Virus record (IMG/VR): IMGVR_UViG_3300017958_000051
Span: 1 to 26,717 of that record
Direction: 5' to 3' (one strand)
From: a virus
Length of the DNA stretch: 26,717 bases
The notes beneath the pieces were generated by a model. That model was not told the origin of the DNA, ran no database searches, and was given only the letters and a program-made list of their open reading frames with translations. Below are positions 2,924 through 23,600 of the stretch, in pieces (position 1 is the first letter of the stretch; each line of letters begins with the position of its first letter). The position numbers and the translations under genes were made by a program.

Positions 2924-2938
2924 TTATACTTTGCTCCG

Positions 2939-5134: not shown

Positions 5135-5136
5135 TA

Positions 5137-5766
5137 TTATACCTCAGTAAATCCAGTTAGACTCTGTATTCTAACTGTGTAATCAATTTGTATCAATCTG
5201 TTCAATGATTTTTGAACAGGGTGAAATACAACATGTGTTAACAACTTTCCTGTTGATGCTTTTAAACCAAGTTCATCGAATACATATTCACCATCCATAT
5301 CTACTGAATTATCAAATGCTTCTTGGCCTTCTGGCTCACCATAATCTAACAAACAACTAACAACAACATCACTATATGTTGCTCCAGTTACATGACGGAC
5401 TTCCATTTTATTTCTAGTGTTGTCTGTATTAGTGGCAGAATTTTGATCGACAACCTTAGTATATGTTTGATTGTACAAACTACTGTCTGTACCGTTTGTA
5501 TTTGGTGTGAGATATGTAATAAGCCCTGTTGGATCAACAACCGTTCCTCCATTACCAAAGCTCATTTCTGATATCCAACCAACTCCTTGGTTTGATAAAC
5601 TTTGTGCCATTGCTACACTGATGTTTTCATAGTGAATAGCATTACGTTTATCAACGTAAACTTCTTTAGTTTCAGGGTCAAAAATCTTAATATGCCCTTC
5701 AATATGAAACCCACTTTGTTCGTCAGGTTTCTTATTATCTGTTTGATTTTGTGTTTTTTCTGCCAT
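5137..5766 (-). CDS. Small conserved phage structural protein (209 residues)
   Basis: I chose ATG 5766 (MAEKTQ...) because GAAGAG lies six bases upstream of it. An ATG ten codons earlier at 5796 has no ribosome-binding site. The first 25 residues are charged and Q/N-rich, probably disordered. The body holds GHIKIFDPETKEV, DKRNAIHYENIS and EMSFGNGGT, a pattern I associate with structural proteins between the baseplate and fibre genes of marine T4-like phages. No membrane segment or catalytic motif is visible. It lies between the giant gene and the collar fibre, ending two bases before the latter starts, so it may be a connector or wedge component in the position of T4 gp8-gp11. That role is inferred; I see no alignment to a specific T4 protein. 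Confidence 0.7.
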   Translation of the reverse strand: MAEKTQNQTDNKKPDEQSGFHIEGHIKIFDPETKEVYVDKRNAIHYENISVAMAQSLSNQGVGWISEMSFGNGGTVVDPTGLITYLTPNTNGTDSSLYNQTYTKVVDQNSATNTDNTRNKMEVRHVTGATYSDVVVSCLLDYGEPEGQEAFDNSVDMDGEYVFDELGLKASTGKLLTHVVFHPVQKSLNRLIQIDYTVRIQSLTGFTEV

Positions 5767-5772
5767 ATCCGT

Positions 5773-5778
5773 CTCTTC
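5773..5778 (-). promoter_or_regulatory. Ribosome-binding site deciding the start at 5766
   Basis: GAAGAG on the minus strand stands six bases before the ATG at 5766. The alternative ATG at 5796 is preceded only by AATAAATACA, with no purine-rich site. This favours the shorter, 209-residue product. Confidence 0.55.
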
Positions 5779-5798
5779 GAGTTTGTTATCTCTCATTG

Positions 5799-5806
5799 TA
5801 TTTATT
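5799..5806 (-). promoter_or_regulatory. Candidate late-promoter box AATAAATA
   Basis: The minus strand reads AATAAATA across the stop codon of the giant gene, matching seven of eight positions of the T4 late box TATAAATA. A transcript starting about ten bases downstream would begin past the ATG at 5796 and use the one at 5766, which agrees with the ribosome-binding site. AT-rich DNA gives such matches by chance, so this is weak. Confidence 0.3.
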
Positions 5807-8800
5807 CAGGTAATTCTGTGCTACTATTTTGTAAGAATCTAGCTACTGCTGATGTTGCTTCACTTAATGAAACTCCATTAGATACAGTAGTATCTCCTCT
5901 ATCGTGCCAAGTTCTACCTGTTCTCCTAATTATTGTAATGCGTGTTCCTGGATCTACAGGATCAGTAAGCCTTACATATTCATTTATGCCATCTACGCTA
6001 AATTCAGCATCGTACTGAACATCGCCGTCTGGACTATATGCCGCTTTTGTAGCATCATATAATTTAAATGCGTCTTTCCTTAATCTACGTCCGCCAACAA
6101 ACACTTCAATATTATCACAACGTCCGTACCCATCTGGGATACTTGTATTAGTAACATCAAAATCAGCACCTTTAACTGGAACATAGTCTAAAGGTCCAAC
6201 TAGTAAACTTGAACCATCCGATACAAAATCAACCTTATCCTGTTCATCATTATACGGAATTTGTTCAGTATAACTTGTATCAATAACTACTGTGCCTTTT
6301 TCGTGTACTGTTCTAATACTTGTACCATATACACCTCGTCTAATATTCTGTAATTCATTTCCTGACTTAGTTAGATACTGTATTTTTTCGCCATTTATTG
6401 TTACAATTCCAGGTTGACCTGTTGCCGGAACTGGTAACTTAGAAGCATCTGTTAACTTGACAACAGTATCATAATAGTTTAAATTTTCAGCAAGTTCAAC
6501 ATTTATCAATTGATATCTATGATAACTGTTTCTGTTTAATACATCTCTAGAAATTTCATAACTAATAGGATTATTGTAAATTTTATTACTATATGTTAAC
6601 GTTTCAATAATATCAGTTTCTAAAGTGCTATTTTTTAGATAAACTGCGTTATTTGCGCCGCCTACATAAAAATCAATATTTGGTGTTAGTCTAACACCGT
6701 TTTTATAAACCCAAACATTAGAAATATTATTAATACTTCTTTGTAATTTATAACTGTTTTGATTTCCAGTATAAACATCTCTTACAATATCAACTTCAGT
6801 GTATCTAGTAAACCATGTTACATCAATATAGTCGCCTGCTTGAATTACATAAAGTGGCGAAAATACAATATTTCCATTTACTATTTCATAGTTGGAATCT
6901 TTTAAGTTTTCAACTTGTACAATATCACCTTTGTTAGCATCAACAATTAATGTTATAGAATTATTAGCACCATCAAAATTATAATCTAATGCGTCACGTA
7001 GAGGTTCACCATTTAAGAAAACCTTTATCTGTGTTGGAACTATTGTACCCGATCCAATTACAGGATCATCGTTGAGATTAATAGTATCATTATCCTGATA
7101 TACATAATAAGTGCTATCAACCGATCTTAGTAGAGAGCCGTTATATTCTACAATAATATTTGAATCATCTCTAGAACCTAAAGTTTCAAAGAATTGGATT
7201 GGATATGTTTTAGTACCCGGTGTTAAAGTAATTCTTTCTTCGTTTATTCTTACAATACTTTCTGCTTGGCCGCTTTCTTCCGAAAGTACAACAATTTGAA
7301 TTAATGAATTTGTCTTAGGTGGTTTACCAAATTCTACAAGAGTATTGTCTGTTTGGTTAACTACACCATTACTATTAACAAATCCAACATTAGTTGCTAC
7401 ACCATCAATGGTAGCAAACACTTTTCCTGTAGATTCAAACGGAGCACCTGTTAAGAAGTAACGTGTTTGTCCATCTCCGTTATATTCTCTAACATCAAGC
7501 AACTCAACGCCACCTACTCCTAGTGAAAATACTTCAATTATATCTGTATTGTTTGGAGCAGTAATAAATCTAATTTGATTATTATTATAATCAATAGTGT
7601 AATCTACATCAATTTCTTGTTTTGTTTTATTAACAAAAACTAGCAAGTTAGAATTTTCAAGGATATGTTGATCAATCTTATAAACAGTTTCTGTACCGTC
7701 AGCAGTATAAATTCTAGAAAGTACAGACGGTGCTCCAAATCTATCTGTATGGAATACTCTAATGCTTAAACTTTCTAGTACCTGTCCTGGAACATTTTCT
7801 TCTGGTGCTGGAACTTGCTCCGGACTAATAAACTTCTCACCGTCAATAACAATTTCTTCAGGCAAAATACCTGTTGCTGTTGAATAAGGAGTAGCACCTA
7901 AAAGTGTTCCACCGCTTACTTCGGCATCTAGATAGTTTGCTGATTGTATATCAAGAGATCCGTCACTTTCAACAGGACGGAAAATTAAAACGTCTCCGTC
8001 GTTGACATAAATTCCTTCATCCGGAATAGGAATTGTAATTACGTTTGTGCTTCCATCACCAACAAACGATGTCATAATAGCATCATCGTTGGTTTGGTTT
8101 GACGTACCGTAATTTGGATCGTCTAATCTTGTTGTTTTTGTTTCACCTTTACGTCTAATATAGATATTGTAAATTTTTCCTGACTCAGGAACTTCAGGTA
8201 ATACAAATTCATGGGTACTATCATCTGCGGCAATGTAAAAATCTTTACTGTTGCTTTCAGCAGTATCCCAACCTTCTGTAAACCACGGTAAAGCGTCCCA
8301 TCCTGCGCCAACATCAAATGTAGCACCTTGAACAATTACACCGCCATAATCCATACCAGTAACTAACTGTGAATAATCTGTAGTAATTTCACTGCCATCA
8401 TCTGGAATAGTTTTATCAATACCAAGCATTCCGTCAGTTGGTTTATAGTATTTGTCAATTCTGTTTAAACTATCTAGTATTTCATCATTCTTTTCATACT
8501 TAATAGTAATGACTGAACCGTCTGGTGCGGCTGTTAACAGTGTTAATCTTCCTTTTAATACTGTTATGTCATTAATAACTTTAGTATAAAGTGTAATATT
8601 GTAATCACTAACAAACTGTTGTTGTGAATCAACAAAAACTGTGATAGCACTCTTGTCAAGTGTGCTAGGATATTTAAGATCAAACGTTGTTAGTCTACCA
8701 GTTCCTGTAAATGTTTCAGTTTCAATAAACTTTTCGTTAGAACTATATGATTTAAATGTTGGTGTTTTACTATATCTATCAAATTTAATTGTATTATGGA

Positions 8801-11800
8801 ACAATCTTGCCTTGCTGTTTCCTATTCTAGCAACAGCTTTAGCACTAAACTGTGTTTGCGTTCCAACACCGCCAACAATTTCAACAGTAGGAACACTAGT
8901 ATAGCCACTTCCAAAGTCTGTTAAAACAATTTTAGTAACTTTTCTATTAGAAATATATGCTTTTGCTTTTGCGCCTGTTCCGCCGCCGCCTGAAATAATA
9001 ACTTGAGGGACACTTGAATATGTGCTACCTTGATCTGTAAGTATAATATCTGTTACTTCAAATTTGTAATTGTTAAACCATTCGTTCCATGGTTTCAAAT
9101 CAATTTGAGTATCACCAAGTTTTACAGGGTTAATAGTATTAGTATCAATATTGTAATATGGAGGTAGATCAAAATCTGATACATTTGAATTTGTATCTTC
9201 TATATTTTGATATCTACTTGTAAAGTTTCTAATTTTAGTTCTGTACGGTTTTACTTCTTCAATATATGCTTGATATGCCGCTAGATTATCGCTACGGAAG
9301 TTAAGTTTTTGTTTTAAGTAACCAACATTATGAATAGCGTTCAAGAAACTTGTCTTAAATGCCCAGTCAACATATAATTGTTCACTGAATACATAATGTA
9401 TATTAACAAAAAACAATTTATTCCAATAACCGTCTAACTCATCAATAAACACATTATACTTCATAGCGTTTAGAATGTTTCTAAACTCTTTAGCCGCACT
9501 AGTATCATATCTATTGCTGTCATATGTTTGTGTTTTGTCATAACCAACAGATTCAGTTTCGGTATTGTAAAACTTATTAATAATTCTAAGGGTTCCGTTT
9601 TCTCTACCAACAAGATTAAATTTTCCTTTAATCTTTGGATCTTTATCAGTACGTTGAAGTACTGCCCAACCACCTGAACCAAAATCATCAAGTCTTAATA
9701 ATTCGCCTTCATCTAGTGTTACTTCATTTTCTGCGTATAAACCAGGCAATGTTTCTTTGATTCTACTATCTTCCGAAAAGCCTTCTGACCACCAATCAAT
9801 AGTTTCCCAATATTTTGTAGTATCAAATTCTTGTGTAGCCACTCTTGAGAATTGTTGCTCTCTAACACTCCAAGCATAGATGCTCCAAAAGCCGTCTACA
9901 GTACTATCAGATTGTACTAGCACACTATAAGGTCTAACAATAGCATTCGCTGTTAAATATTTCTTACCGTTATTAGTAACTGTTACACTTGTAATTCTAC
10001 CAAAACTATCAATTGTTGCTTCAGCTGTGGCTCCTTCACCTGTACCTGTAATGGTAATTAATGGAGCTCTTCTATATCCGAAGCCTGGATCATCAATTTC
10101 AATGGTATTAACATGACCGTTGATAACATTTACTGAAAGTTTAGCATCTTTAATAGTTGATGTTGTTTGGAATCTTAATTCAGCTTCTGTATTAATTTTT
10201 ACATCGTAAAGATTTTTAACTTCACTAGGTTCTTTATCAATCATGTTTAAGAATTCATAATCGATTTCATCTGCTAGTGGTAATGTATATAATGCTTCGT
10301 TAATAAAATCTATTGTTTGTTCAACTGCTTTATTTCTATTAACAAATATGGTTTGTCTCGGACGACTTGCTGTACCATATTTGTTTTTGTCTGATAAATT
10401 AGGATCAGGAATTTGATTTCCAAGAATATCACTTCCTACAAGACTGTCAATCCACTTTCTTTCAAGATCATTATTTGGATCTTGTTTACTTTCTTCTGTA
10501 GCAAGAACATATTCGTTATGAATTAGATTAACGTCTTGACTATTTTTATAGAACTGTATGTTAACACTAAATTCATCGTAATCTAATAAGCTCTTGAGGT
10601 TGCTTATTGTAAGTTTGTCGTTGTCTACAATGTAAGCAAAAGGAACACCAGCATTTTCTGGATTCGAAATATAATCAGAAACTTGACTTGCGGCTAGTGT
10701 TTTAGGACTATTAATTTCAATATCTTGTTTATCCTTAACCCAGAAATAAAAACGTGTCTCTGAAATATTTCCGCTAATTGGATCAACCTTTTCTTTTATA
10801 CTAAAAACACTATCGTCTGGATGTAACGGAGTTCCTGTAATTGTTGGATCATCTGAATTTGTTAAACTAGCATATTGACTTGGTCTTAGTGTTGATTCGA
10901 CCCATTGATAAACATCAATTGAACTACCTTGTGCTGTACTATTCCAATTTCCGTTCCTAAATACTACATCAGATTGTTCATAAACAAGATATTTTACTTT
11001 TGATGTATCCCACCAAATTTTTCCGACCTGCTTATCTGTCCAATGTTGTGATTCATCTTTAGTTGTTAATTCTTCATTATTAGATTCTGTATAAACAGCA
11101 GGATCAAATGGTGTTTTAAAATCAATATTTTGTTCTACAATACCAAGTATCTTTCCTTTATAAGAATCAACAACATCTATGTCAGCAATTTTTGTATAAG
11201 TTTCTTTTTCATATGCCGCAAGATTTCTAATTTTAGAAACATCAACTTGATTAGTTTGATTTCTAATAACAGTCCATGGTTGAATACCTTCTTGTTTTTC
11301 GTACTTTTGTATTCTACCAATAACTACTTCGCTGAATGCTGGATCTTCTGATAGATATTTTGGAGAACCTACGATAATAGTATTGTTACTTGTAGCAATT
11401 GAACGGCCAAAATCTTCATTAAAACTTAAATCATCTTCAAAAATTTCACCGAGAACCCACTTGCCACCGTATTCGTTAAACACAAATACCTTACCTGTTG
11501 TTCCTAATGGATCAGCAAAGCCGGTTATTTCTCTATCAAACTTAGTTTGATCAGTATCAAATGTAGTTGTTTCAAATGTTTGAGCACCTTCTGCTGAAAC
11601 TGCTAAAGTTTTGCCATCAGGAGAAACACTTATATTCGATCCAAATCTTTCATCAAAGTCATTTGTGTTTGATTGAATTTTTTGATTTAGTACAAATTTA
11701 TTCTGACTCCAGTTGAATACAAAAACCGATCCTTGATCTCTTTCATTTTTGTCTTCGTTTGGAGCACCAACAAATAATGTATTTCCGTCCGCTGATAATG

Positions 11801-14800
11801 TTACTTTGTATCCAAACACATCACCAGGATTTAAACTTGAAACGTCATTCTTGTTAATTTGTTGAACAAATTCATAAACTTTGTTAGCATTTTTCTTGTA
11901 TACAAATACTACGCCTGTTCTTGGCATTCCTGTATTTTGTACAACAACCCATTTATTATCTACTTCAGGAGCATCATCAATGCTTGTTAAACTCGAATCA
12001 CTATCAAGTTCATAGTATTTGTTATTTCTTCTTACAACATCGCCCTGGACATAGGTTTCAGTTGCTCTCCATACACCTCTATAACTTTCAAAATTAGATG
12101 TATCAGCATACGGAGCACTAGATACTAATACGTTTCCGTCATCTGTCATTGATATACTGGATCCGAACTTATCTCCAATATCAATATTTTCAACTTGCTC
12201 GTCAGCTGTTCCTTGTTCAAATGACGATCCGTCATCAACATAAGCATAAACATTAGGAACAATATCTCTGTTAACAGTATTTGTTTCGTCCCAGGAATCA
12301 CTAATATCTGGAGTTGTTACTCCATCAGCTGTAAAGAATTCATTTGCTTTATAATAACCGCTACCATACCAAACAATGCTTCCGCTAACATAACTTCTAT
12401 TGATATCAAATAATCCTACAAAAGAAGTATCTTGTAGCAATGTCCATTTATATCCGTTGTATGTGTAAAGATAAACTTTACCTCTGTCATCGCGGCTACC
12501 TGGAGCAGAAACTGCCATGTAGTAACTTTCGTCAACAGCACCAATACTAGTTCCAAGTATTTTAATTTGGTCTCCGATAACGTATCCAGAGCCTGCTACA
12601 CTAATTGTAGTGTTATATGCTCCATCTTTTCTTTCAACGTTAAAGATTGCGCCGGTTCCTGGATTTGATACATCTTCCGGACTAACGTCTAAGAATGTTC
12701 CTGATCCACTAGCAGGAGTTCCTGTAAATTCAATACCTATTGCCGCTGTTCCTGTATAAGAGAAGAATTGAATTTCACCTTCTCTTTTAGTTGGGAAAGG
12801 TCCTACTTGTCCGTCGTCAGTAACTTGATTTACTCTAATTGTAATATCATTTTCAGGTGATAAACCGCCTACTGTATTTCCAGGGATTACTATAACAGTT
12901 CCTGTAGTATACGTAATTAAATTTCCGCTGTTGTCTTTTTCGTCCCAATCGACCCAGTTACCTGTTCCAAAATTAGGATCGTTAGTATCATCTATATATT
13001 TTACATTAAATGGGAATCCAGAAACTCTTTCCCAAAACTCAGGTGATCTATCAGGAAATATAGTTTCGTAAGAACTATAAGCAGTTGCATCTGTGCCAGG
13101 TGTGACATTTGTTACTGTTTTTAATACATTCCAATATTGAGAACTATTAGCAGGAAACTTAACTACATCACCTTCATAATATGTTGATGTACTATTCCAT
13201 ACACCTTTATCAATATTTGTATCTTTGATACAAGCATAGAAGAAATTATTGAATCTTACAATACTTCTTTGCTTATATCCATTACCTGGTTGTACTTTTA
13301 CTGCTCCGTCCTGTCTAAGTCTTACATTATAAACATCTTTGTTTTTAGTAACAGTAAACAATGCTGTTTCAGATACTGGAGTACTAACAATTCCTGTAAT
13401 ATTATTAAATGTATCAGCACCTAAAATTGAACCATTTTCGTCAACGGCTTTAACAACAATTACAATATCGTTATTAGATGTACCTGATGCTGGTTGCCCG
13501 CCTACTCTAGTTCCTTGAATGTATAATCTATCTCCAACAGTGTATCCTGATCCTCCAGTTCTTACACTAACATCATATGTTGGTATACCTGTTGATCTTG
13601 TAATATCAAATGTAGCATTAATACCAGAACTACTAACATCAATGCCGCTAACATTTTCAAATAGAGCATCATTTAAACCACTTGTTCCGTCTGACTTAAC
13701 AGAAATAATTCCACCAACAGCATCAATTTCATTTACAGTTAGTGTTACATCGCCGCTGGTTCCTTCAATACCTTCTAGTTTTCCTATTGAAACAGAAGCG
13801 CCAAAATTTTCACCATGTGCTTGTCTTGGACTTACTAAACTATTTCGTAATATCCATTGGCCGTTTGAATACTCATAAATGTCAACACCACCTTGTCTAG
13901 AATATCCTTTATTTGCTAAAAATAATTCTCCTCCAAGTGGGTTTGCTTGTGGTAATTCAACTGGTTTCCAATCTTCGCTTGAAAGATCAATACTACTTCC
14001 ATCACCAAATACTCTTACTTTTGCTTCATATAATTTTCCAGCATACAATACAGTATCACCTGGTTCGTAGTTAGCATCTGGATCAAATTTTTCTTGATAG
14101 TTGCTTGGAATATAACTTGCTTTTGGTGATCCAACAACTAACCAACGCCCATCTTTACTTGCTGTAAGTACTTCAGCATACGCACCTAAGTAAGCAGATT
14201 GTAATCCGCTTTTTGGCGTAAGAATTTGTAAAGGTATTAAACCTGATTCTCCGTCTGAATAAACAACTACAGCTGAGTCTCTAATGACGTCGCCAGTGGT
14301 GACCGGCGCACCGGGGTTACCTACAATAGTTTGATTTAATTCAGGAACAAACGACACAGCACTACCAGTTCCGGTTGGAAAAGCAATACCGTATTCTGAA
14401 ATTTGTGTTACTTTATATTGTTTGTTTCTTTCTACTACTTCCCAATTTCCGTTATCTTCATTTTTATCAATAAAAACTTTAGAACCGACTGGTAGTTTAG
14501 CAAAACCTTTGTTTACTAGTTCTTCGTAAGATGCTACTCGTACACTTTCAAAATAACTTATAAAAGAAAATGAGCTTTCGTCAACTTCTGGTTCTTCTCT
14601 AAATCCTGTAATAGCAATTATAATATCTGTAAGTGTTACGCCAGCAATTTGGAAAAATCCGTTTAGTCCCTGGACCCCAGTTATTCCAACAATTTGTCCT
14701 ACTTTAAAGTCATGTACTCTATTACATTTTAAAACCAATCTATCAACATCTGGTGCTTCAACATCATATATTGAAACGTTACTAATAACATATCTATAAA

Positions 14801-17800
14801 CATTCCACGATCCTGGCTCAAATGTTGTCCAGACGTTGTCACCATGTTTAAAATTATCAAACGGAACAGTATTATCTAAAAGTTCGGTTAATTCATTTCT
14901 TATAAACTGTACATCACTTGAAAATATGTAACCTGCTGAATTAACAGGAACCTCAAACCTTTTGGTAGGGAATTTAAAACTTGTATTTGCTAATTGATAA
15001 TCATTATCATTTAATAAAATATAGTTTTGAAAATCGACTACACTAAATTCGCTACCATTTAATAAAACTGGTTGCGGATTTAATTTAAAGTCACTTACTT
15101 TTAAATCAAACTCAACTTCGTTAATTTGATCTGTGCCGCCAATTGAACCTAATCTAAATGCCCATTCTTCGTCTAGCACTATTTTATCATCGTCAATTTC
15201 GCTGACTTTATCAAAAACTTTTTTAATTGCGTTATTGGAGCCTTTTTCTCTACTAAAGCCTTGATACAACTTAAATTGTGATACTGTATCTTCAGCAATT
15301 TCCTGTAGATATTCTCTAGGTTGAAAACCTACTGTATGTCTTGCTAGTTCTTTTTGCTTTGAATCTATTCCTTCAATGCTGGTTTCGTAATAATCTTCAA
15401 TTTGACTTATTCTATAATCAAAGTTTGGAACCAAACCTGACTCAGGAAGGTTATCTAATAGATCCCAATATGATCTATCAAATTTGTCTGTACCCTTTTG
15501 AAACTTTTTACTTACATAATAAAATTCTTTAAATTGTACAATGTCACCAATTTTGTAATCTGTAAATTTTTTCCAAGAGCTAATGTTTACTCTATCAAAT
15601 ATAAATCCTGGAGAAGTATAGTTACCATCCCAATCGACGGTTCTAAATCCTTTGCTCTTAATTCTTTCTTGTCTATAACCAGGTCCTTTATCAAAAAGAA
15701 CATCATTAAAAACAGTCTTGTCATCAAAAATAGTAACGTGTTCTTTTTGTATATAATTAATTTCAGCAAAATATATTCCTTGAGTATTATCCTGCGGAGA
15801 AATTAGTAATTCATTAATTCCTCTATATACATCAATATCAGTAGCATCTATTTTTGTGCCGTCAGCTTTTAAAATATTATAATCATAAAAACTATCAAGA
15901 ATGTTGTCTGCTACAGAACCAATATTTTGGAATCGCAATAAAGTTGCTCCAGGACTTACTGAAAGTATACTTCCTACTGCCCAGTTATGTGTAGTCCAGA
16001 AAAGAAACTCTTTGACTGATGTTTCCCAATTTTGTACAACACCAAGTTCTTCATTATATTGATCAAAAACCATCCCTTGGGAATTAAGGAAAGCTCCATA
16101 ACCTAATAAGAAATCAACAACTTCTTGTATATTTCCAAATACATGATCATAATTTAAAGTAAGAGTATCGACTTCATTGAACTTTGTTCTCTTGATTGCT
16201 CTTGCTCCGCCGGTAATTGGAACATTGTCTATTGCTGTCCAAAAATTAGCTTCAAATATTTCTCCAGACGTATGTGCTTGTATTGCTCTAAAAAATTGAT
16301 TTTGATTTCTTACTAACGTTCCTTTTGAATAAAAAGATTCAGCACTCCAATCAACAAAGCCTTCACTTACACCGCCGACATCTAATACAGGATCATTTTG
16401 CTGAGCAAAGAAACTAAAGTAATTAAAAATCGAATTTAATTGATCGTAACCGCTTACTTTATAGCCGCCAGCAACTCTTTCAATTAACACACCGCTGTAT
16501 CTTGTTGTAAACTGAGGAGAACTAGAATTAAAGAATATTTCATAGTTTTCTGTTGGAACAAAAATACCAGTTTGTGTACTTTGAGGATTTTTACTATCTA
16601 AAAGATATTGCTGTTGAGCTTTATCAACAAACCCTTTCATTCTTGTGCTTAATTGAATGTCTAAGTTTTCGTACAAATCAATTATATCTTGTTTTGTTTT
16701 AGCGTTTGATTTTAGATAGTTTACAACAAAGCAAACCAATCCATCTGATCTAGAAGTAGAATTTACAGCCCTGATAATATCATCATTTGTTAAAAAAGTA
16801 TTTGTAGTTTTACTAACAAGTTGTCCTACATTGTTTTTCTTAAAAATATTTCTATCTAGGTTTAAACTAATAGTTTCGAAAGGTCTCAACAAACATGCCG
16901 CAATTATTTGAGCATAAGGATAAACACTGCTACGTCTCCACGCATGTTCAACCGGAGATATATCTCCAAATGAAAAGTCTGCTGTATAATCAGTTGAATA
17001 ATCAATAATACTGTCTGATTCTAAAGGAGTTAATAAATTACCATCTTTATCAACAGGCAAAAATTCTAATAATCTCGGACGAATATATCTTTTATGGGTT
17101 CCTGCTCTTTCGCCATGTCTAATAATGCCGTCTCTAAGATCTTCCCACAATAATAAATTATTTGAAGTATATGGTGCTTGACCATACTCATCTTCCCACC
17201 AACTTGGTTTTTCTGTAAAACCTAACATCTCCCAAGGCGCGGTATGAGGAGTTTGGGTATCATAAAGATATTGATAAATGCCTCTCCAGTGTGCGGGCAT
17301 TTTTTGTTCTCTTAAAATATCTAAATTTTGATTATATGTCCAAGTAAATTGATTTTCAGGATCATGATAAGCATTTTCATAGATATCAATATTTTTTACT
17401 AGAGGCCATCTCAAAAACTCTAGCTCTAAGATATCATCTACTTGCTTTTTAGTAAATGTTCCTGTGTTTTCGTATCCGCCAAATAAACTGTCAATATCTA
17501 AAATTTCAGGATTATATTTTTGTTTAATATTATTATAAATTCTTTTTTCAAACTCTAGTACTAACTCATCTCTAAAATCATCATAAGCAACAGTTAAACT
17601 ACCATCGTGTCCTCTGATTAATTTTTGAGGTTTAGCAAACGTATTGTCAACAAAAATTCTTGGAACCCAAGATTTTGTTAATCCTAAACTTGTTGGTGTT
17701 TCAGGAATAAATGTAAATGACGTTGAATAAAATTCTTTAATTTCTAACAGTTCGCCTTCATTTAAATCTCTAGTAATTCTAACAAAACTAAACTCGCTGT

Positions 17801-20612
17801 CAAAAACATAATCTACACCGTGTACTAATTGTACATTATCTATATAAAGGTATACTGCTTTAGTCGACGCTGTTTCTAAATCAAACTTTTCAGTTAGAGA
17901 AAATGTTTTAATTCCAGTATCTTCGACAGTATACTTTGTCGTTTTATTTGCTCCGCTACCAATCATATCACTATTAGAATATGGATTAGTTTCAGGCTTT
18001 ACTCCGCTAATTTTAGAAATTATTGTATCTAAGAAAGAAACTACATTCTCTCCGTCAAATGGCAATGTTATTGATAATTTTAAGATATTACTTTTATAAT
18101 TTTCATATTCTCTTGCTGCATATCTTAATGACTTAACAATATTAATATTTTTATCACACAATAACGGTAACGAAGTTGCCGCAACAGAAATATATTTTAA
18201 GAATCGCTGTCCTCTATGTTGATAACCTGCTAGATCTCTAAGATTGCTTTCACCTGGAAACTTCCCTGAAAACTCATCAGTGTAATCGACCATTGATCTT
18301 AAATGATCAGTTGCTTGTCCTAGTGTAAAAGAATTAAGTTCTTGATTTAAGGGATTTCTTTCTAGATTTTTAGGAAATTCATAAAATCCTAAATTAGGTT
18401 CATCATCCGAAAATACTTTAAGAGTTACAGTATCCCCTGCTGAAAAATCTATAGTATCAAAACTAAATGTTCTCTTGCCTTCGATTGTAGAAACTACAGT
18501 AAATGTGTCTCTAATAAATTCTCCATTTTTGTAAAAATATAATTTTGGATTATTCGATTTTGACCAATCAACATTTGAGAATGTAACTTCATTCGAATCT
18601 TGTTCGAGTGTAAACGCTTGTACTATTCCTTGATCAAATACAGGATCACTAGCAATGTACAAGTTATGAAAACTAAAATTATCTAAAGTTTGTGTTGTTT
18701 TAATATATCCAGAATTAATTTTTTTCGATTTGTTTTCAGCATTAACTTGATATGTAAACGAATCGTAGTCCCAATTAGATTGAAATTCAATATCACCACT
18801 GTTGTTTAAGTTTTGATAAGATATAGAAAAACCAAGTTCACTATCAACCGGGCCTGTTCCAACTTTATATGATACTAAACTACTACCTTCAAAAGATGAA
18901 GTTTCATATTTGTCGGTGTTTGAAAAACTTACTCCGTCATCATCAAATACATCAAACTTAGGTGATTGGTTTACTGAATTTTTAGTTTGGCTTTTGATCC
19001 AATTCTCGCCATCATAGTGATACATTAATCCGGCATTATTTTTTCCAAATCTAATAATTACACCTTCGCCTGGGTTTGTTTCTGTGTCATCGGCTTCAAC
19101 TAGTGCTATTTGTGTATTATCAGCAGTATTGTTTGCTTGTATGACAATTTTTTTAACAACAAAAATTTTATTTTTTACTAGCGGATCATTATCGGCAGTA
19201 AAAATAATTCTTGCTCCGTCAAAAACATCTACGTTATCGATATTATAACCTGCTGTTCCTTCAATAGATGAAAAAACATCGGTAGTAAAATCATCAATAA
19301 AATCAACACTTTCTTTAGCTAACGCACAATGATTAATAAGTTGTATATTTGAATTAAACTCAATAATAGGTCGTTTTGCTCTATTTGTTTCTGATGTTCT
19401 TGGTGCTACTTTGTTAATTTCAGCACTGTAATTAATAACATCTTTATGGAACCATTTATTATAACGACTCCATGGATTTTTATCTTGACTTGATCTATTA
19501 ATTGTAATATAGTCTTTGTTTGAAGGGAAACTTACAGCATCATCAAAGGGTAATTCATCCCAGCCGCCATCGTCAAATAAAACATCAACATCGTCATTTT
19601 TTACAGGTGGTAGATCGAGTTCTTGAAAACTTACCAACTTAATTGATTCGCCTACGCCGTCAACTAACCAATCTCCTTCTGAATATTTTTCTGGAGTTAC
19701 CTGTCCTGTAAAATTAACCTTTAAACCATTTGTAAATTTTATACCATTAGAGCTTGTGTAATTTACTTTTCCTATTACATCTGTTTCAACATTAATTTTA
19801 GTATTTTCATCTATAGATGAAATTCTAAACATACCAACTCTATCAATATTATTTGAACTTTGATAGTATAACACATCTGGACTATTATTAGGTACAGTAA
19901 ATGTTACTGTGCCAACTTCAATACCGTTATTTGTAACGCCATCGTTATAATTTGCTATTGATCCTTGTGTTGGATTTCTTCTGATATAAAAAGGATCGCC
20001 AGGAGTATTAACATTAAAAATATATGTCTGACCTCTATATAGAGTTAGACCAGGATTAGGTGTTAGTCCGTCGGGGAAAAATATAAATTCGTTTTCGCCT
20101 TGGCTTCTAACCCTATACTCTGAAATAATATCTTGGCCTTGACCACTAACACTGACAGCATCAGGACCTTGCGGCAACCAATAGTATTCTCTATAGTTAA
20201 TAAACTTGTCCCAATTAATAGGAGGATTCCAACTATAACTTCTTAATCCTGTAGTTAGGTCGTCTCTTTCGTTATTGTTGTTAAAAAACTTTAATTGGTT
20301 TTTTACATCAATATAATCGTAGAAACTATTAACAGATAAATTTTCTTTATCTCTAATAACTACACCAGGTTCTAATTGATAAGCATGCCTTAAAGATTCT
20401 TCTTTGTCGATATAGATGTCTTTACTGTTATAGGTTCTTCCGTAATTACGACCTATATAACCTGAAATTCTATCAAGTGTGCCAGGTTGTACTAAAGGAT
20501 CTAGTGCGGCACTTAAAAACTTTCTGTTTGTTGAAGATTTAAAAATCTCTGGCAGTAAGTTATAAGTTTCTCTAACAGGTAATTCACTCTGTTTGAATAT
20601 TTTCTTATCCAT
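5802..20612 (-). CDS. Giant mosaic baseplate/fibre-associated structural protein (4936 residues)
   Basis: The frame is open without interruption for 14.8 kb. It starts at ATG 20612, sharing one base with the gp6 stop (TAATG), and ends ...STELPE. Domains by residue: 1-150 conserved N-terminus (LPEIFKSSTNRKFLSAALDP, NYREYYWLPQGP); 190-262 cupredoxin-like; 351 and 4105 paired GWD-LP motifs; 888-964 beta-sandwich; about 1104-1254 Trp-rich block (PHTAPWEMLGF, WWEDEYG); six W/Y carbohydrate-binding-like modules between 1418 and 2893; FG-GAP-like propeller 2136-3118; GSGY beta repeats near 2350, 2680, 3510 and 3880; YIEEVKPYRTKIRNF around P3789; beta-sandwich repeats 3965-4670. No signal peptide, membrane segment or protease motif was seen. 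Position after gp6 suggests a baseplate wedge or fibre replacing T4 gp7-gp11. Structural nature is well supported; precise role is inferred. Confidence 0.7.
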   Translation of the reverse strand: MDKKIFKQSELPVRETYNLLPEIFKSSTNRKFLSAALDPLVQPGTLDRISGYIGRNYGRTYNSKDIYIDKEESLRHAYQLEPGVVIRDKENLSVNSFYDYIDVKNQLKFFNNNNERDDLTTGLRSYSWNPPINWDKFINYREYYWLPQGPDAVSVSGQGQDIISEYRVRSQGENEFIFFPDGLTPNPGLTLYRGQTYIFNVNTPGDPFYIRRNPTQGSIANYNDGVTNNGIEVGTVTFTVPNNSPDVLYYQSSNNIDRVGMFRISSIDENTKINVETDVIGKVNYTSSNGIKFTNGLKVNFTGQVTPEKYSEGDWLVDGVGESIKLVSFQELDLPPVKNDDVDVLFDDGGWDELPFDDAVSFPSNKDYITINRSSQDKNPWSRYNKWFHKDVINYSAEINKVAPRTSETNRAKRPIIEFNSNIQLINHCALAKESVDFIDDFTTDVFSSIEGTAGYNIDNVDVFDGARIIFTADNDPLVKNKIFVVKKIVIQANNTADNTQIALVEADDTETNPGEGVIIRFGKNNAGLMYHYDGENWIKSQTKNSVNQSPKFDVFDDDGVSFSNTDKYETSSFEGSSLVSYKVGTGPVDSELGFSISYQNLNNSGDIEFQSNWDYDSFTYQVNAENKSKKINSGYIKTTQTLDNFSFHNLYIASDPVFDQGIVQAFTLEQDSNEVTFSNVDWSKSNNPKLYFYKNGEFIRDTFTVVSTIEGKRTFSFDTIDFSAGDTVTLKVFSDDEPNLGFYEFPKNLERNPLNQELNSFTLGQATDHLRSMVDYTDEFSGKFPGESNLRDLAGYQHRGQRFLKYISVAATSLPLLCDKNINIVKSLRYAAREYENYKSNILKLSITLPFDGENVVSFLDTIISKISGVKPETNPYSNSDMIGSGANKTTKYTVEDTGIKTFSLTEKFDLETASTKAVYLYIDNVQLVHGVDYVFDSEFSFVRITRDLNEGELLEIKEFYSTSFTFIPETPTSLGLTKSWVPRIFVDNTFAKPQKLIRGHDGSLTVAYDDFRDELVLEFEKRIYNNIKQKYNPEILDIDSLFGGYENTGTFTKKQVDDILELEFLRWPLVKNIDIYENAYHDPENQFTWTYNQNLDILREQKMPAHWRGIYQYLYDTQTPHTAPWEMLGFTEKPSWWEDEYGQAPYTSNNLLLWEDLRDGIIRHGERAGTHKRYIRPRLLEFLPVDKDGNLLTPLESDSIIDYSTDYTADFSFGDISPVEHAWRRSSVYPYAQIIAACLLRPFETISLNLDRNIFKKNNVGQLVSKTTNTFLTNDDIIRAVNSTSRSDGLVCFVVNYLKSNAKTKQDIIDLYENLDIQLSTRMKGFVDKAQQQYLLDSKNPQSTQTGIFVPTENYEIFFNSSSPQFTTRYSGVLIERVAGGYKVSGYDQLNSIFNYFSFFAQQNDPVLDVGGVSEGFVDWSAESFYSKGTLVRNQNQFFRAIQAHTSGEIFEANFWTAIDNVPITGGARAIKRTKFNEVDTLTLNYDHVFGNIQEVVDFLLGYGAFLNSQGMVFDQYNEELGVVQNWETSVKEFLFWTTHNWAVGSILSVSPGATLLRFQNIGSVADNILDSFYDYNILKADGTKIDATDIDVYRGINELLISPQDNTQGIYFAEINYIQKEHVTIFDDKTVFNDVLFDKGPGYRQERIKSKGFRTVDWDGNYTSPGFIFDRVNISSWKKFTDYKIGDIVQFKEFYYVSKKFQKGTDKFDRSYWDLLDNLPESGLVPNFDYRISQIEDYYETSIEGIDSKQKELARHTVGFQPREYLQEIAEDTVSQFKLYQGFSREKGSNNAIKKVFDKVSEIDDDKIVLDEEWAFRLGSIGGTDQINEVEFDLKVSDFKLNPQPVLLNGSEFSVVDFQNYILLNDNDYQLANTSFKFPTKRFEVPVNSAGYIFSSDVQFIRNELTELLDNTVPFDNFKHGDNVWTTFEPGSWNVYRYVISNVSIYDVEAPDVDRLVLKCNRVHDFKVGQIVGITGVQGLNGFFQIAGVTLTDIIIAITGFREEPEVDESSFSFISYFESVRVASYEELVNKGFAKLPVGSKVFIDKNEDNGNWEVVERNKQYKVTQISEYGIAFPTGTGSAVSFVPELNQTIVGNPGAPVTTGDVIRDSAVVVYSDGESGLIPLQILTPKSGLQSAYLGAYAEVLTASKDGRWLVVGSPKASYIPSNYQEKFDPDANYEPGDTVLYAGKLYEAKVRVFGDGSSIDLSSEDWKPVELPQANPLGGELFLANKGYSRQGGVDIYEYSNGQWILRNSLVSPRQAHGENFGASVSIGKLEGIEGTSGDVTLTVNEIDAVGGIISVKSDGTSGLNDALFENVSGIDVSSSGINATFDITRSTGIPTYDVSVRTGGSGYTVGDRLYIQGTRVGGQPASGTSNNDIVIVVKAVDENGSILGADTFNNITGIVSTPVSETALFTVTKNKDVYNVRLRQDGAVKVQPGNGYKQRSIVRFNNFFYACIKDTNIDKGVWNSTSTYYEGDVVKFPANSSQYWNVLKTVTNVTPGTDATAYSSYETIFPDRSPEFWERVSGFPFNVKYIDDTNDPNFGTGNWVDWDEKDNSGNLITYTTGTVIVIPGNTVGGLSPENDITIRVNQVTDDGQVGPFPTKREGEIQFFSYTGTAAIGIEFTGTPASGSGTFLDVSPEDVSNPGTGAIFNVERKDGAYNTTISVAGSGYVIGDQIKILGTSIGAVDESYYMAVSAPGSRDDRGKVYLYTYNGYKWTLLQDTSFVGLFDINRSYVSGSIVWYGSGYYKANEFFTADGVTTPDISDSWDETNTVNRDIVPNVYAYVDDGSSFEQGTADEQVENIDIGDKFGSSISMTDDGNVLVSSAPYADTSNFESYRGVWRATETYVQGDVVRRNNKYYELDSDSSLTSIDDAPEVDNKWVVVQNTGMPRTGVVFVYKKNANKVYEFVQQINKNDVSSLNPGDVFGYKVTLSADGNTLFVGAPNEDKNERDQGSVFVFNWSQNKFVLNQKIQSNTNDFDERFGSNISVSPDGKTLAVSAEGAQTFETTTFDTDQTKFDREITGFADPLGTTGKVFVFNEYGGKWVLGEIFEDDLSFNEDFGRSIATSNNTIIVGSPKYLSEDPAFSEVVIGRIQKYEKQEGIQPWTVIRNQTNQVDVSKIRNLAAYEKETYTKIADIDVVDSYKGKILGIVEQNIDFKTPFDPAVYTESNNEELTTKDESQHWTDKQVGKIWWDTSKVKYLVYEQSDVVFRNGNWNSTAQGSSIDVYQWVESTLRPSQYASLTNSDDPTITGTPLHPDDSVFSIKEKVDPISGNISETRFYFWVKDKQDIEINSPKTLAASQVSDYISNPENAGVPFAYIVDNDKLTISNLKSLLDYDEFSVNIQFYKNSQDVNLIHNEYVLATEESKQDPNNDLERKWIDSLVGSDILGNQIPDPNLSDKNKYGTASRPRQTIFVNRNKAVEQTIDFINEALYTLPLADEIDYEFLNMIDKEPSEVKNLYDVKINTEAELRFQTTSTIKDAKLSVNVINGHVNTIEIDDPGFGYRRAPLITITGTGEGATAEATIDSFGRITSVTVTNNGKKYLTANAIVRPYSVLVQSDSTVDGFWSIYAWSVREQQFSRVATQEFDTTKYWETIDWWSEGFSEDSRIKETLPGLYAENEVTLDEGELLRLDDFGSGGWAVLQRTDKDPKIKGKFNLVGRENGTLRIINKFYNTETESVGYDKTQTYDSNRYDTSAAKEFRNILNAMKYNVFIDELDGYWNKLFFVNIHYVFSEQLYVDWAFKTSFLNAIHNVGYLKQKLNFRSDNLAAYQAYIEEVKPYRTKIRNFTSRYQNIEDTNSNVSDFDLPPYYNIDTNTINPVKLGDTQIDLKPWNEWFNNYKFEVTDIILTDQGSTYSSVPQVIISGGGGTGAKAKAYISNRKVTKIVLTDFGSGYTSVPTVEIVGGVGTQTQFSAKAVARIGNSKARLFHNTIKFDRYSKTPTFKSYSSNEKFIETETFTGTGRLTTFDLKYPSTLDKSAITVFVDSQQQFVSDYNITLYTKVINDITVLKGRLTLLTAAPDGSVITIKYEKNDEILDSLNRIDKYYKPTDGMLGIDKTIPDDGSEITTDYSQLVTGMDYGGVIVQGATFDVGAGWDALPWFTEGWDTAESNSKDFYIAADDSTHEFVLPEVPESGKIYNIYIRRKGETKTTRLDDPNYGTSNQTNDDAIMTSFVGDGSTNVITIPIPDEGIYVNDGDVLIFRPVESDGSLDIQSANYLDAEVSGGTLLGATPYSTATGILPEEIVIDGEKFISPEQVPAPEENVPGQVLESLSIRVFHTDRFGAPSVLSRIYTADGTETVYKIDQHILENSNLLVFVNKTKQEIDVDYTIDYNNNQIRFITAPNNTDIIEVFSLGVGGVELLDVREYNGDGQTRYFLTGAPFESTGKVFATIDGVATNVGFVNSNGVVNQTDNTLVEFGKPPKTNSLIQIVVLSEESGQAESIVRINEERITLTPGTKTYPIQFFETLGSRDDSNIIVEYNGSLLRSVDSTYYVYQDNDTINLNDDPVIGSGTIVPTQIKVFLNGEPLRDALDYNFDGANNSITLIVDANKGDIVQVENLKDSNYEIVNGNIVFSPLYVIQAGDYIDVTWFTRYTEVDIVRDVYTGNQNSYKLQRSINNISNVWVYKNGVRLTPNIDFYVGGANNAVYLKNSTLETDIIETLTYSNKIYNNPISYEISRDVLNRNSYHRYQLINVELAENLNYYDTVVKLTDASKLPVPATGQPGIVTINGEKIQYLTKSGNELQNIRRGVYGTSIRTVHEKGTVVIDTSYTEQIPYNDEQDKVDFVSDGSSLLVGPLDYVPVKGADFDVTNTSIPDGYGRCDNIEVFVGGRRLRKDAFKLYDATKAAYSPDGDVQYDAEFSVDGINEYVRLTDPVDPGTRITIIRRTGRTWHDRGDTTVSNGVSLSEATSAVARFLQNSSTELPE
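6603..8720 (-). repeat. C-terminal short beta-sandwich repeats in the giant protein
   Basis: Residues about 3965-4670 hold roughly six diverged copies of a unit: a glycine-containing opening (TGTGRLTTFDL, VGDGSTNVITI, TADGTETVYKI, NGDGQTRYFL, TGNQNSYKLQ), then a hydrophobic strand with FV-N-K, FLNGE or VYKNGVRL, then DY/DF and a strand ending in an I-V or I-E pattern. Such repeats are common in phage fibre and baseplate proteins as spacers. An isolated related unit lies at about 888-964 (DTGIKTFSL, YIDNVQLVHGVDYVF). Confidence 0.55.
11259..14207 (-). other. FG-GAP-like beta-propeller region of the giant protein
   Basis: Residues about 2136-3118 repeat a blade pattern: FG + S + DG + L-VGAP, then G-V-Y/F followed by W and Q. 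Anchors are DGRWLVVGSPK (2154-2164), FGASVSI (F2270), MAVSAPG (from M2699) with GKVYLY, FGSSISMTDDGNVLVSSAP (F2816), FGYKVTLSADG (F2933) with VGAPNED, FGSNISVSPDGKTLAVSA (F2990), and FGRSIA with IIVGSPK (F3068). The first three blades are split by long insertions that contain W/Y and GSGY modules. FG-GAP blades occur in integrin alpha chains and adhesins. About six blades are visible; the fold is inferred from these motifs. Confidence 0.6.
11935..16360 (-). repeat. Six carbohydrate-binding-like W/Y modules in the giant protein
   Basis: Six segments follow the pattern W/F, about six residues, Y, two residues, GD, V, a YY or Y pair, and a closing W. Approximate residues: 1418-1461 (SFYSKGTLVRNQNQFF, NFW), 1677-1724 (DYKIGDIVQFKEFYY, YWDLL), 2174-2219 (NYEPGDTVLYAGKLYEA, DWKPV), 2469-2532 (TYYEGDVVKF, FWERV), 2732-2776 (SYVSGSIVWYGSGYYKA, SWDE) and 2842-2893 (TYVQGDVVRRNNKYYE, KWVVV). 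The pattern resembles chitin-binding modules of CBM families 5/12. Glycan binding is inferred. Confidence 0.5.
19827..20045 (-). other. Degenerate cupredoxin-like module in the giant protein
   Basis: Residues about 190-262 match the plastocyanin-like module often found in marine phage structural proteins: YRGQTYIFNV, then NDGVTNNGIEVGTVTFTVP, then DVLYYQSSNN and M261. In the usual version a His follows a Gly early on and the end reads YYYCSNHSGM. Here D206 stands at the first His position, S252 at the Cys and N255 at the second His, so copper binding is unlikely and the fold is probably purely structural. Confidence 0.55.
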
Positions 20613-23600
20613 TAATTTTTACTCGTCTTAGTTATAACCTGTGAGTTGAGCAAATTAAGTTCAGTTGCTGTAATTGTGTCTACAATTTGAATATCATCAA
20701 CTGTTGCTGCACTTACTAGGATTTCATCTGGTCGAGATTGTATCTCACTTAAACTTCCGTATGCTTGATCTTCTTGTTTTGGAACCATTACAATGTTACT
20801 AATTTCTGGAGAATTAGCCTGGATAATATATGCTAGTAGTTCACTTGAATAAAACTTATCACCAAAGTCCCAATTTTCAATTGAAAAATAATTTGCTATT
20901 GTTACAACAATTTTAACTTTTAAATCATTATCGTTAACTACCATATTTTTGTTCTTTACAACTTTAAATGTTGTTTGAAATTCTGTTGGCGCTTTTGTAC
21001 CAAATAATGGAAAATATGTTACAGGATGATAAACAATTTCATCACTAATAGTTTTTAAATCACTTAGTTCTGATCCAAATTGAATTCTTAAACTTTCAGG
21101 TGTAGGTTCTTCAGGAGCAGATGCTGATGCTCCTATTAGGAATTTTCTATAGTTAATATCATAGTTTCTAATCAATAGATATACATCAATTATATTACTG
21201 GAACTTGGATCAATTCTTCTGCTACTACTAGCATTATGAATATACTGGAACTTAAGACCGCTACGTCCAACATAAGCAACATAGCTAGGCTCAAGAATAA
21301 ATGTTCTGGTAATTAAATCAACTCTTTTAACAAAATTTTCTGCTTGATCATAAAAATATATTAATTGATTATGTTCATAATCATTAACACTTGTATTAAC
21401 TTCTTTGTCTTTGATTAATACAGTATTGGTATCATTATTAATAAATTCTAACTGTGTAAACCCAAAATTATCAGTTGATTTTTTAAAGAACAAATATTTG
21501 TCTGTTAGATCTGTTCCTACAATATCATCAAAACTATCAGGATTATCAATTACTCCATCATCGTCTGTGTCAAAAAATGTTATCTTAACACTTTCAGTAC
21601 TTTGATATCCATCTTCAAATCTAACACTATCAAAAATTTCAAATGAAACATCATTTTTTAGAGTTTTATCTTGATCAATAATAGCAGTAACATCGTCTGC
21701 TGTAAAATCAGGGTTTGTTGTTTTTAGTTCAACAATCTGAGTCGCTAGGTCAGCGGCCGAAATTTCTTTTCCTTCTGGAGTACTATTAATGTCTAAAACT
21801 TTAATTTGATCTTTAATTACTGTTCTTTTCTTACTGTCATAAATTTTTTCTGATCTATCAAAATAAAATCTATTTTGTTCTACACTACTAAAGATGTAAT
21901 CAGTGCCACGCACTCTTACTCTAAATTCATCACCGTCATATACAAATGCTAATAACCAACTAGCATCAGCGTTAGTATTTGTAGCATCGCCTGCTTGACC
22001 TAAACTAAAATCACTTGCTAAATCAATATTAGTACTAGAAATAACTTTCCATGATCTAGTTTCAATATCATATCTTAGACCAAATGTTTGACTCGAAAAA
22101 CTAAGATTTAGTATTTCTGTTTCTATATCTGTAGGTAAATTATTAACAAATTTAGGAACAACTTGTGATGGAATAGCCTCTGATGGAATAGGATCCGATA
22201 ATGTAATTGGTCCTGTTCCATTAGATAGGTTTCCTTTGCCTGCGTTTGTGCCATCACCTACAACCCTAACTACTTTTGACCATAGATATTTTTTATGAGT
22301 TTTATCTGTAGGATCGTATGTTACAAGTTCACCGTCTTTAAATGCTTGTGTAGTTAACGGTGGTAAAAATTTAATTAAACTGCCTGCTTCTATAAAACGC
22401 AAGTTGCTTGAAGTGTATATGCCAACCTTAATCGGAAATTCATCAAATATGTTTCCAAAGTAACCTGTAGAAGCGTTAGCATCGGTAGTTGAACGTAACC
22501 ACTTAACACTTACATCACTAGTAAAGATTTTATCAAAATTTGTAATGTAAAAATTATATGTTTGTGAATCTTCAATAGCAGGTTCGATTGTATTTCTAAT
22601 ATAATTTAATACAATATTTTTATTGGTAAATGTATAACTGAAATTTCTTTCAGTATCGGTTCTATAAATTAAACCATCATCGGCAAAAACATTAACCATG
22701 GAATATTTTCCACTAGCATCAACAATATCAAAATTTCTACTAATACCACTAGATGTTCTGTTAATTGCTTTTACTTTTAAAATTTCTTGTGAACTACTTA
22801 ACGGAGCAAGATTATAATCTTCTCCAGTAACCATTCTATTTTGTGTATAATATTGAGCCGGTGCTTTTGTTCTAATTGATTCTACGTCTTCTGACGGAGC
22901 ACTATTATCTACTGTATACTGTAGATTCATTGTAAGTGTAAGTGTATGTGTTACACCTAACGCATTTTCGTATTGAATATCAATACCGACATTTCTCATA
23001 TCTCTTGGAGATATGCTATAACTAGAACCTATAGAGGTTCTAAAATAACATCTAAATGTTCCTTGTGGAAGATTTCCAAATGTTCCGTCCGAAAATAGCA
23101 AATCAACTGTATCGTTTTCTTGTGTAATAACAGTATAGATATTTTTTTGATTTCCAGTTAGACTGTTATAAATGATATTGTTGCCTTCAACAGAATCAAC
23201 CTTTGTCCATAGTGTTTGAGGATTATCATTCGAATCTAATTGATATAACCAAACATCACTATTGTTAATGCCTGGTGTTGTAATTGACACTTGTTCATTA
23301 ACAGTTGGCTGTATTACTTGGAATTCAGCACTTTCGAGTGTTCCTTGTTTAAACATCATAAAGAAACCGGTATTAGCACTTGCGTTACCTCTGCCATCTT
23401 GTCTGTATATAAATCCTAATTTATTACCAGGTAGAGGAGTTTCTTCATATATGTAATCATAGTTTAAAATAGATGTACTTGGAATTTCATAACGCATAGA
23501 TCTTCCTGCTGTTGTTTTTGAATAATTAAACAGCGGAATAGCAGTATTTGTACTATTAAATCTATATTGATCTGTTTTTATTCCATCAATAACTTTAGAA

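Follow-up and report, generated by a model that had tools for sequence, protein, structure and literature searches.

How can a reading frame of 4,936 codons be accommodated among the baseplate genes of a virus, and what would its product do there? The window, which is the whole stretch of DNA analysed (G000, in itself a virus record of 26,717 bases), carries this giant gene on its minus strand at 5802..20612, as an ATG-to-TAA frame. An earlier note on the same DNA had described one uninterrupted frame of 4936 residues, and the ORF was recovered exactly so; the product, which the note had put at approximately 540 kDa, has a computed mass of 554.3 kDa instead and a pI of 4.6.

The giant gene and its neighborhood

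At the base composition of the window, the probability of encountering no stop over 4,936 codons is approximately 2e-182. Four other IMG/VR records (L006-L009), separate records whose samples may not be independent of that of the window, align to it without gaps at 99.90-99.95% identity over 12.9 to 21.1 kb; only L009 covers the entire gene, and the 4,936-aa frame is complete there. A 4,939-aa version was found in two more records (L010 and L011), and the giant of L010 is 81.5% identical to that of the window. Between these two, dN/dS stayed within 0.03-0.16 in each of the 20 bins, which hold at most 250 codons. The giant gene is real, intact and under selection along its whole length, and the earlier judgment that the frame is unlikely to be an artefact holds on the strength of the 99.9% identical contigs, one with the whole gene, and of the 81% identical relative with its low dN/dS.

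In gene order, the window begins with an unassigned 127-aa ORF. On the minus strand there follow genes resembling gp5, gp25 and gp6, then the giant, a small member of phrog_11259 and three genes of fibre-like type. The gp5-like hub/spike gene (24626..26296, 556 aa) matches phrog_13211 (4.1e-32). The next gene (24181..24624, 147 aa) matches phrog_261 (1.6e-16) and phrog_43 (1.7e-14), two families that bear the label "baseplate wedge subunit", and is read as gp25 from its position and family. The gp6-like baseplate wedge gene (20612..24124, 1,170 aa) matches phrog_10646 (1.9e-284) and phrog_219 (3.1e-16). The short, coupled junctions described earlier on both sides of the giant were also found: its ATG has one base in common with the stop codon of the gp6-like gene (20612), and its TAA ends at 5802, leaving a gap of 5 nt to the next ATG at 5796. 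This ATG opens the small downstream gene (5137..5796, 219 aa), a member of phrog_11259 (7.4e-72), a family whose function label is unknown. An in-frame ATG at 5766 may be the true start of the small gene, since homology in most of the listed relatives begins at approximately its residue 26. The three consecutive fibre-like genes follow at 3-887, 920-2923 and 2939-5134. All three have an N-terminal module of approximately 90 residues in common and each is matched by phrog_15511, which suggests three fibres mounted on one type of anchor.

The neighbors of the giant form a baseplate cluster. In T4 the order at the corresponding place is gp6, gp7, gp8, gp9, gp10, and because the giant directly follows the gp6-like gene, it sits at the gp7 locus; T4 gp7 (1,032 aa) likewise lies between gp6 and the genes of the outer baseplate.

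A family of giants in isolated jumbo phages

A profile search matched the giant to PHROG_10938 with an E value of 3.5e-288, and six separate segments of it each match this family, in order. By these profile matches the giant is a member of PHROG_10938, the giant "virion structural protein" of jumbo phages of the RaK2, 121Q, Atu_ph07 and PA5oct type. In a tblastn search of 50,697 phage records, the N-terminal piece matched 70 records, the middle piece 60 and the C-terminal piece 11. The cyanophage matches to the N-terminal piece, among the matches listed, cover approximately residues 160-295 only, a cupredoxin-like insert described below. The matches of longer coverage are to jumbo phages, among them RaK2, K64-1, 121Q, PBECO4, GAP32, CBB, Munch, Atu_ph07, Phosso, PA5oct and relatives, SCTP-2 and Vibrio phage 2.275.O. 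The homologues measure 3,313 aa in XacN1, 3,342 aa in Munch, 3,807 aa in SCTP-2 and 3,771 aa in Vibrio phage 2.275.O, the record of which is labelled a partial genome; those of RaK2, 121Q, GAP32, PA5oct, Atu_ph07 and Phosso are given below.

A gp6 homologue directly precedes the giant in nine of 10 isolate records. The exception is Salicola phage SCTP-2, which retains the giant while its gp6 homologue lies approximately 92 kb off. In the same phage (L005, 1-9229) the place of gp6, directly upstream of the giant, is taken by another giant frame, of no fewer than 3,065 aa. The small downstream gene does not adjoin the giant in RaK2 or 121Q.

The closest isolates in size and order are Atu_ph07 (gp180, 4,449 aa), Phosso (294, 4,555 aa) and, as given in a table row, AP-J-162 (gp58, 4,455 aa). 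In Atu_ph07 the final base of gp6 is also the first base of the giant, in Phosso the giant comes directly after gp6, and the small gene is near downstream, as in the window. Their giants are 23-30% identical to that of the window by segment, with one 73-residue piece at 45%, and differ from it in their inserts. PA5oct gp355 (3,857 aa) lies in the same order as in the window, with a wedge gene, gp6, the giant, the small gene (by position) and fibre-type genes; it has a C-terminal segment in common with window residues 4682-4768, and its variable belt is shorter than that of the window.

Several members of the family have been listed among virion proteins. In the sections of PMC7247149 covered, phAPEC6 gp245 (381.88 kDa) is reported from the virion proteome with 17 peptides and 7.6% coverage, following gp244, a "baseplate wedge" protein. 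We take it as a family member because of this position and because its mass is almost exactly that of the 121Q homologue, computed as 381.87 kDa. The virion list of CBB, in the portion of PMC5259590 covered, includes CBB_236 with the values 21 and 7.72, read as peptides and % coverage, and CBB_236 is placed in the family because it adjoins CBB_237, "baseplate wedge". The record of PA5oct gp355 carries the note "ESI-MS/MS", and in the part of PMC11242549 covered AP-J-162 gp58 is listed as a "structural protein", with two baseplate wedge proteins next to it. The earlier description of a structural gene in a baseplate cluster is supported by the neighbors and by the homologues listed in virion proteomes.

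The literature searched comprised parts of PMC10253068, PMC3622015, PMC6102473, PMC7247149, PMC11242549, PMC5259590, PMC7029224, PMC13282480 and PMC6892783. Within these parts we found no description of the role or structure of the giant, only the proteomics rows and an ORF list; the structural-protein section of the RaK2 paper (PMC3622015), as covered, does not mention it, and the terms looked for did not find it in the part of PMC10253068 covered. Nor did the literature and databases, to the extent searched, yield structure, interaction or copy-number data for the family. Baseplate dimensions are given in the same excerpts, 35 nm for RaK2 (PMC3622015) and, for CBB, a width of 36.4 nm and a height of 14.7 nm (PMC5259590).

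Conserved blocks and variable inserts

Occupancy in a 13-member family alignment was used to map the protein into conserved blocks with variable inserts between them (all coordinates on the minus strand). The conserved blocks are residues 1-150 (20163..20612; occupancy 0.96-0.99), 351-600 (18813..19562; 0.77-0.97), 700-900 (17913..18515; 0.76-1.0), 1001-1860 (15033..17612), which is the best conserved core, 3101-3460 (10233..11312) and 3601-3870 (9003..9812). CBM-like modules, located near 1422 and 1680, break up the core at about 1401-1500 and 1651-1750, and a helical segment of it at approximately 1731-1803 was modelled at lower confidence. All conserved blocks match by profile in RaK2 gp465/ORF070w (3,326 aa), 121Q gp582 (3,323 aa) and GAP32 gp230 (3,341 aa), PHROG_10938 members that adjoin gp6, as the window giant does, and whose close relatives carry the protein in the virion. 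The window giant is approximately 1,600 aa longer than these three, and most of the difference is due to its insert at 151-350, its belt at 1861-3100 and its C-terminal domains.

The first insert, residues 161-270 (19803..20132), has a cupredoxin fold in the AF2 model of residues 1-994 (pLDDT 84.2, pTM 0.74) and aligns with 2dv6_A at a VIA-align Z of 11.1 (rmsd 2.4, 96 aligned). Residues 160-272 contain neither Cys nor His, so copper binding of the usual kind is not expected of this domain. A beta domain at residues 894-959 (17736..17933) lies mostly in a variable stretch (occupancy 0.26 at 901-950). The variable belt, residues 1861-3100 (11313..15032), holds a small beta barrel at 1940-2023, FG-GAP repeats, CBM-like modules and GxGY-type beta domains; in Pfam, FG-GAP_2 (57.4 bits, cut-off 23) and CBM_5_12 (38.7 bits, cut-off 26.2) both score above the curated cut-off. 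The variable C-terminal part, residues 3871-4936, corresponds to 5805..9002, and a beta domain common with phrog_460 (residues 3848-3937) straddles its border. The GxGY-type domains recur at residues 2354, 2674, 3510 and 3901 of the giant. They probably explain the matches to phrog_438 (gp8-like) and phrog_460 (Hc2), and similar domains seem, from such matches, to be traded among the neck and baseplate proteins of marine phages.

Fold searches with Foldseek and VIA-align returned only small domains, among the matches listed, for the AF2 model of residues 990-2165 (pLDDT 80.1, pTM 0.51): the beta barrel at 1940-2023, the CBM-like module at 1419-1463 (against 3wx7, 1.2 A over 45 residues) and one propeller blade. 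For residues 1-994 the listed matches were taken up by the cupredoxin insert, so that the search barely probed the other parts of this model. The top entries listed from the viral structure library for this model were proteins of uncultured phages and the Atu_ph07 structural protein. When solved structures were searched by sequence, neither the alignments A1, A2 and A3 nor the whole protein produced a useful match; the best, chitinase A1 (1ed7, E 0.051), was set aside as falling on a CBM-like module. A self-BLAST of the giant printed no internal repeat, which is a weak test since a pattern search does find recurring motifs.

Environmental relatives

Relatives were collected in four scans of IMG/VR. 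The first confirmed nine of 26 matched stretches, giving eight loci; the three further scans confirmed at least 597 of 599, at least 591 of 599 and at least 585 of 600 stretches, and 80 of each were retained. The core is present at no fewer than 239 loci, in at least 183 clusters when that of the window is counted, on contigs that reach at least 516,805 bases (L239). Besides the 81% identical version, there are full-length relatives that are 30-38% identical to the window giant by segment. Among the matches listed, a gp6 homologue lies within 600 nt upstream in 163 of the 166 clusters with enough upstream sequence, and the small gene within 700 nt downstream in 69 of the 88 with enough downstream sequence. 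A scan of metagenome-bin contigs found five marine MAG contigs with a match; these are read as phage contigs in bins and not as evidence of a host. Full-length homologues, a search for which had been proposed in the earlier note, are thus present in many environmental as well as isolated phages.

Complete ORFs from 100 clusters, among the matches listed, have a median length of 4,547.5 aa and a range of 2,193-5,160, values that are biased low because they are limited by flanks of 9-10 kb. Four contigs read further gave ORFs of 6,190, 6,226, 6,307 and 5,294 aa. The relatives of 6,190-6,307 aa (L170, L160 and L186) exceed the window protein and would, to our knowledge, rank with the largest virion proteins of phages. 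From the median, the range and the longer ORFs of relatives, the window giant is rather long for its family but not exceptionally so. The earlier view of it as a single giant is correct in that it is one genuine gene; it is not unique, since giants of 3,300-6,300 aa often occur at this locus.

In some relatives the frame is broken. In L230, where the split giant extends over 5452-16751, it is encoded by two tandem ORFs of 2,241 and 1,529 aa that overlap by 16 nt, with the break within the variable belt. Other split giants break near 3480-3667 (L051), 4174-4180 (L060) and 4648-4667 (L086), and the giants of L239, L153 and L155 end shortly past residue 3404. Part of these breaks could be assembly frameshifts.

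Comparison with T4 gp7 and other wedge proteins

The position of the giant raises the question of its relation to gp7. The T4 gp7 profile matched none of 10 jumbo-phage records and none of three IMG/VR contigs (T4 itself was positive), while the T4 gp6 profile matched all 10 and two of the three. The contig missed with gp6 was G003, though its gp6 is near-identical to that of the window (hmmscan 3.1e-16); genome profile searches can therefore miss diverged genes, and the absence of gp7 is partly a matter of sensitivity. One of 14 control genomes matched the gp7 profile, which was treated as chance. Gp7_helical (PF21428) stayed below its cut-off in all 13 non-T4 records, including G003, G006 and G008, the contigs that carry the window giant or close relatives; sub-cut-off matches in six of the 14 controls and in Munch (E 0.0575, in a 25-aa frame) were likewise treated as chance. 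The gp7 family phrog_964 was not among the four families that match the giant at E values up to 1, and A1, A2 and A3 gave E values of 0.34, 0.17 and 0.64 against a 17-member gp7 alignment.

Twelve block alignments were also compared by hhalign with T4 gp6, gp7 (whole and 630-1032), gp8, gp9 and gp10, in 72 forward and 72 reversed comparisons. No block compared with gp6, gp7, gp8 or gp9 beat the best reversed control (7.7e-3). The best gp7 comparison, with block 3561-3870, reached E 0.0088, against 0.015 for the same block with reversed gp7 and 0.0077 for the best reversed control overall. The sole signal was that of window residues 894-959 with T4 gp10 168-245 (E 1.7e-4, probability 49.6), the best of the 72 forward comparisons where the best of the 72 reversed was 7.7e-3; its E value was 0.0016 with the whole N-terminal part, and correction for 72 comparisons brings it to approximately 0.01. 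A resemblance seen by eye between residues 1757-1840 and gp7 640-760 was not upheld: with whole gp7 the E value was 0.087, at another place in gp7, and with gp7 630-1032 it was 0.20, where reversed controls gave 0.14-0.22. Homology to gp8 is likewise unsupported, the phrog_438 matches inside giants being confined to profile positions 166-301, which we read as the repeated GxGY-type domain. The 50 rows listed from Foldseek and VIA-align for the AF2 models of 990-2165 and 1-994 include no T4 gp7 chain, an absence that does not amount to exclusion.

The giant and T4 gp7 thus correspond in place, whereas sequence similarity was undetected, no fold match was listed and gp7 has approximately one fifth of the length. 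The giant may replace gp7 in place and function, and we do not assign it as a gp7 homologue. The earlier suggestion of a baseplate organ not represented by T4 accordingly applies to its sequence only; the locus is that of T4 gp7, and the gp7 profile is silent in all 10 relatives. Comparable absences have been reported. Among the rows listed in the portion of PMC5259590 covered, the T4 homologues of CBB include gp6, gp25 and gp53 by name and not gp7. For pelagi- and cyanomyophages the reported absence of gp7 goes with an apparent substitute, VrlC, a protein that we liken to the giant by its description only, as given in the sections of PMC7029224 covered. T4 gp7 itself (L032, 9061-12156) weakly matches phrog_2885, a profile of 4,179 positions labelled "baseplate wedge subunit", and going by this match other giant gp7-like proteins may exist elsewhere.

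A proposed wedge scaffold

We propose, at a probability of roughly 60%, that the giant is a baseplate wedge protein of RaK2/Atu_ph07-type jumbo phages, acting as a scaffold where T4 has gp7. The conserved blocks (1-150, 351-600, 700-900, 1001-1860, 3101-3460 and 3601-3870) would form this scaffold. Each of the six wedges would contain it, assembled with gp6 and gp25, and it would fill the place of gp7, perhaps also part of the outer wedge. We infer the contact with gp6 from the proposed arrangement, and likewise that the variable inserts, among them the cupredoxin-like, CBM-like, FG-GAP and GxGY-type modules and further beta domains, would lie on the outer face and serve as spacers, as docks for fibres or in binding to surfaces. 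T4 gp7 is present in six copies per baseplate. By analogy the giant would also be present in six, amounting to approximately 3.3 MDa per virion. That blocks and inserts are separable is consistent with the giant of L230, which is split into two ORFs inside the belt. Points against a scaffold are the lack of any gp6, gp7, gp8 or gp9 profile signal better than the reversed controls, the lack of a T4 gp7 chain among the 50 rows listed in the fold searches, the limited sensitivity of the genome searches on which the absence of gp7 is based, the distance of approximately 92 kb to gp6 in SCTP-2 and the small gene that does not adjoin in RaK2 and 121Q.

The carbohydrate-binding-like modules and FG-GAP repeats, the beta domains common to cyanophage fibre-type proteins and T4 gp10, and the variable C-terminus could also belong to a peripheral adsorption protein of the tail fibre, spike or whisker type, an operon-mate of gp6 outside the wedge core. 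Such a protein is unlikely, given that conservation extends in blocks over the first 1,860 residues and 3101-3870, beyond an N-terminal anchor, that the linkage to gp6 is very strong (163 of 166 clusters, among the matches listed) and that the window has separate fibre-like genes downstream. A wedge scaffold fits better than a fibre because of this linkage, the lack of a recognisable gp7, the presence of homologues in virions and the distribution of blocks along the chain. As a sub-case of the scaffold, the giant might be a true, extremely diverged gp7 expanded by insertions. The identical locus and the failure to find gp7 otherwise would agree with this, as would the lower confidence of the core helical segment when modelled alone, which would be expected if it packs on partners; with profile signals no better than reversed controls (gp7 E 0.0088 against 0.0077) and PF21428 under its cut-off in 13 of 13 non-T4 records, we regard such an origin as possible and rather doubtful.

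Two further explanations concern the integrity of the chain rather than its role. The giant could be translated whole and then cut into several virion polypeptides, a case for which the relatives with two or more ORFs (L230, L051, L060 and L086) might speak. It is improbable in view of the low dN/dS in every bin and of frames that stay open over 4,900-6,300 codons in relatives; the published peptide coverage of 7-8% for homologues cannot decide between an intact and a cleaved giant. For an assembly chimera we found no supporting point, and with four other contigs at 99.9% identity, one across the whole gene, and full-length relatives at 81% as well as others at 30-38% by segment, its likelihood is close to nil.

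Our analyses place the window gene as a long representative of a giant family that is known and widespread yet uncharacterised. In a common group of large phages, gp6 is almost always accompanied by a member of this family, and yet in what was searched neither a solved structure nor a function was assigned to it, its labels being only of the kind "virion structural protein" or "hypothetical protein". More tentatively, and at less than even odds, a large lineage of jumbo phages may have replaced gp7, possibly with more of the outer wedge, by an unrelated single-chain scaffold of 3,300-6,300 residues and a new fold, in which one chain would span much of each wedge and carry exchangeable surface-binding domains. 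If the giant is indeed a wedge scaffold, the gp7 position of a contractile baseplate can be occupied by an unrelated giant chain, and the block boundaries given here would be usable for cloning and for reading cryo-EM maps of RaK2-type phages.
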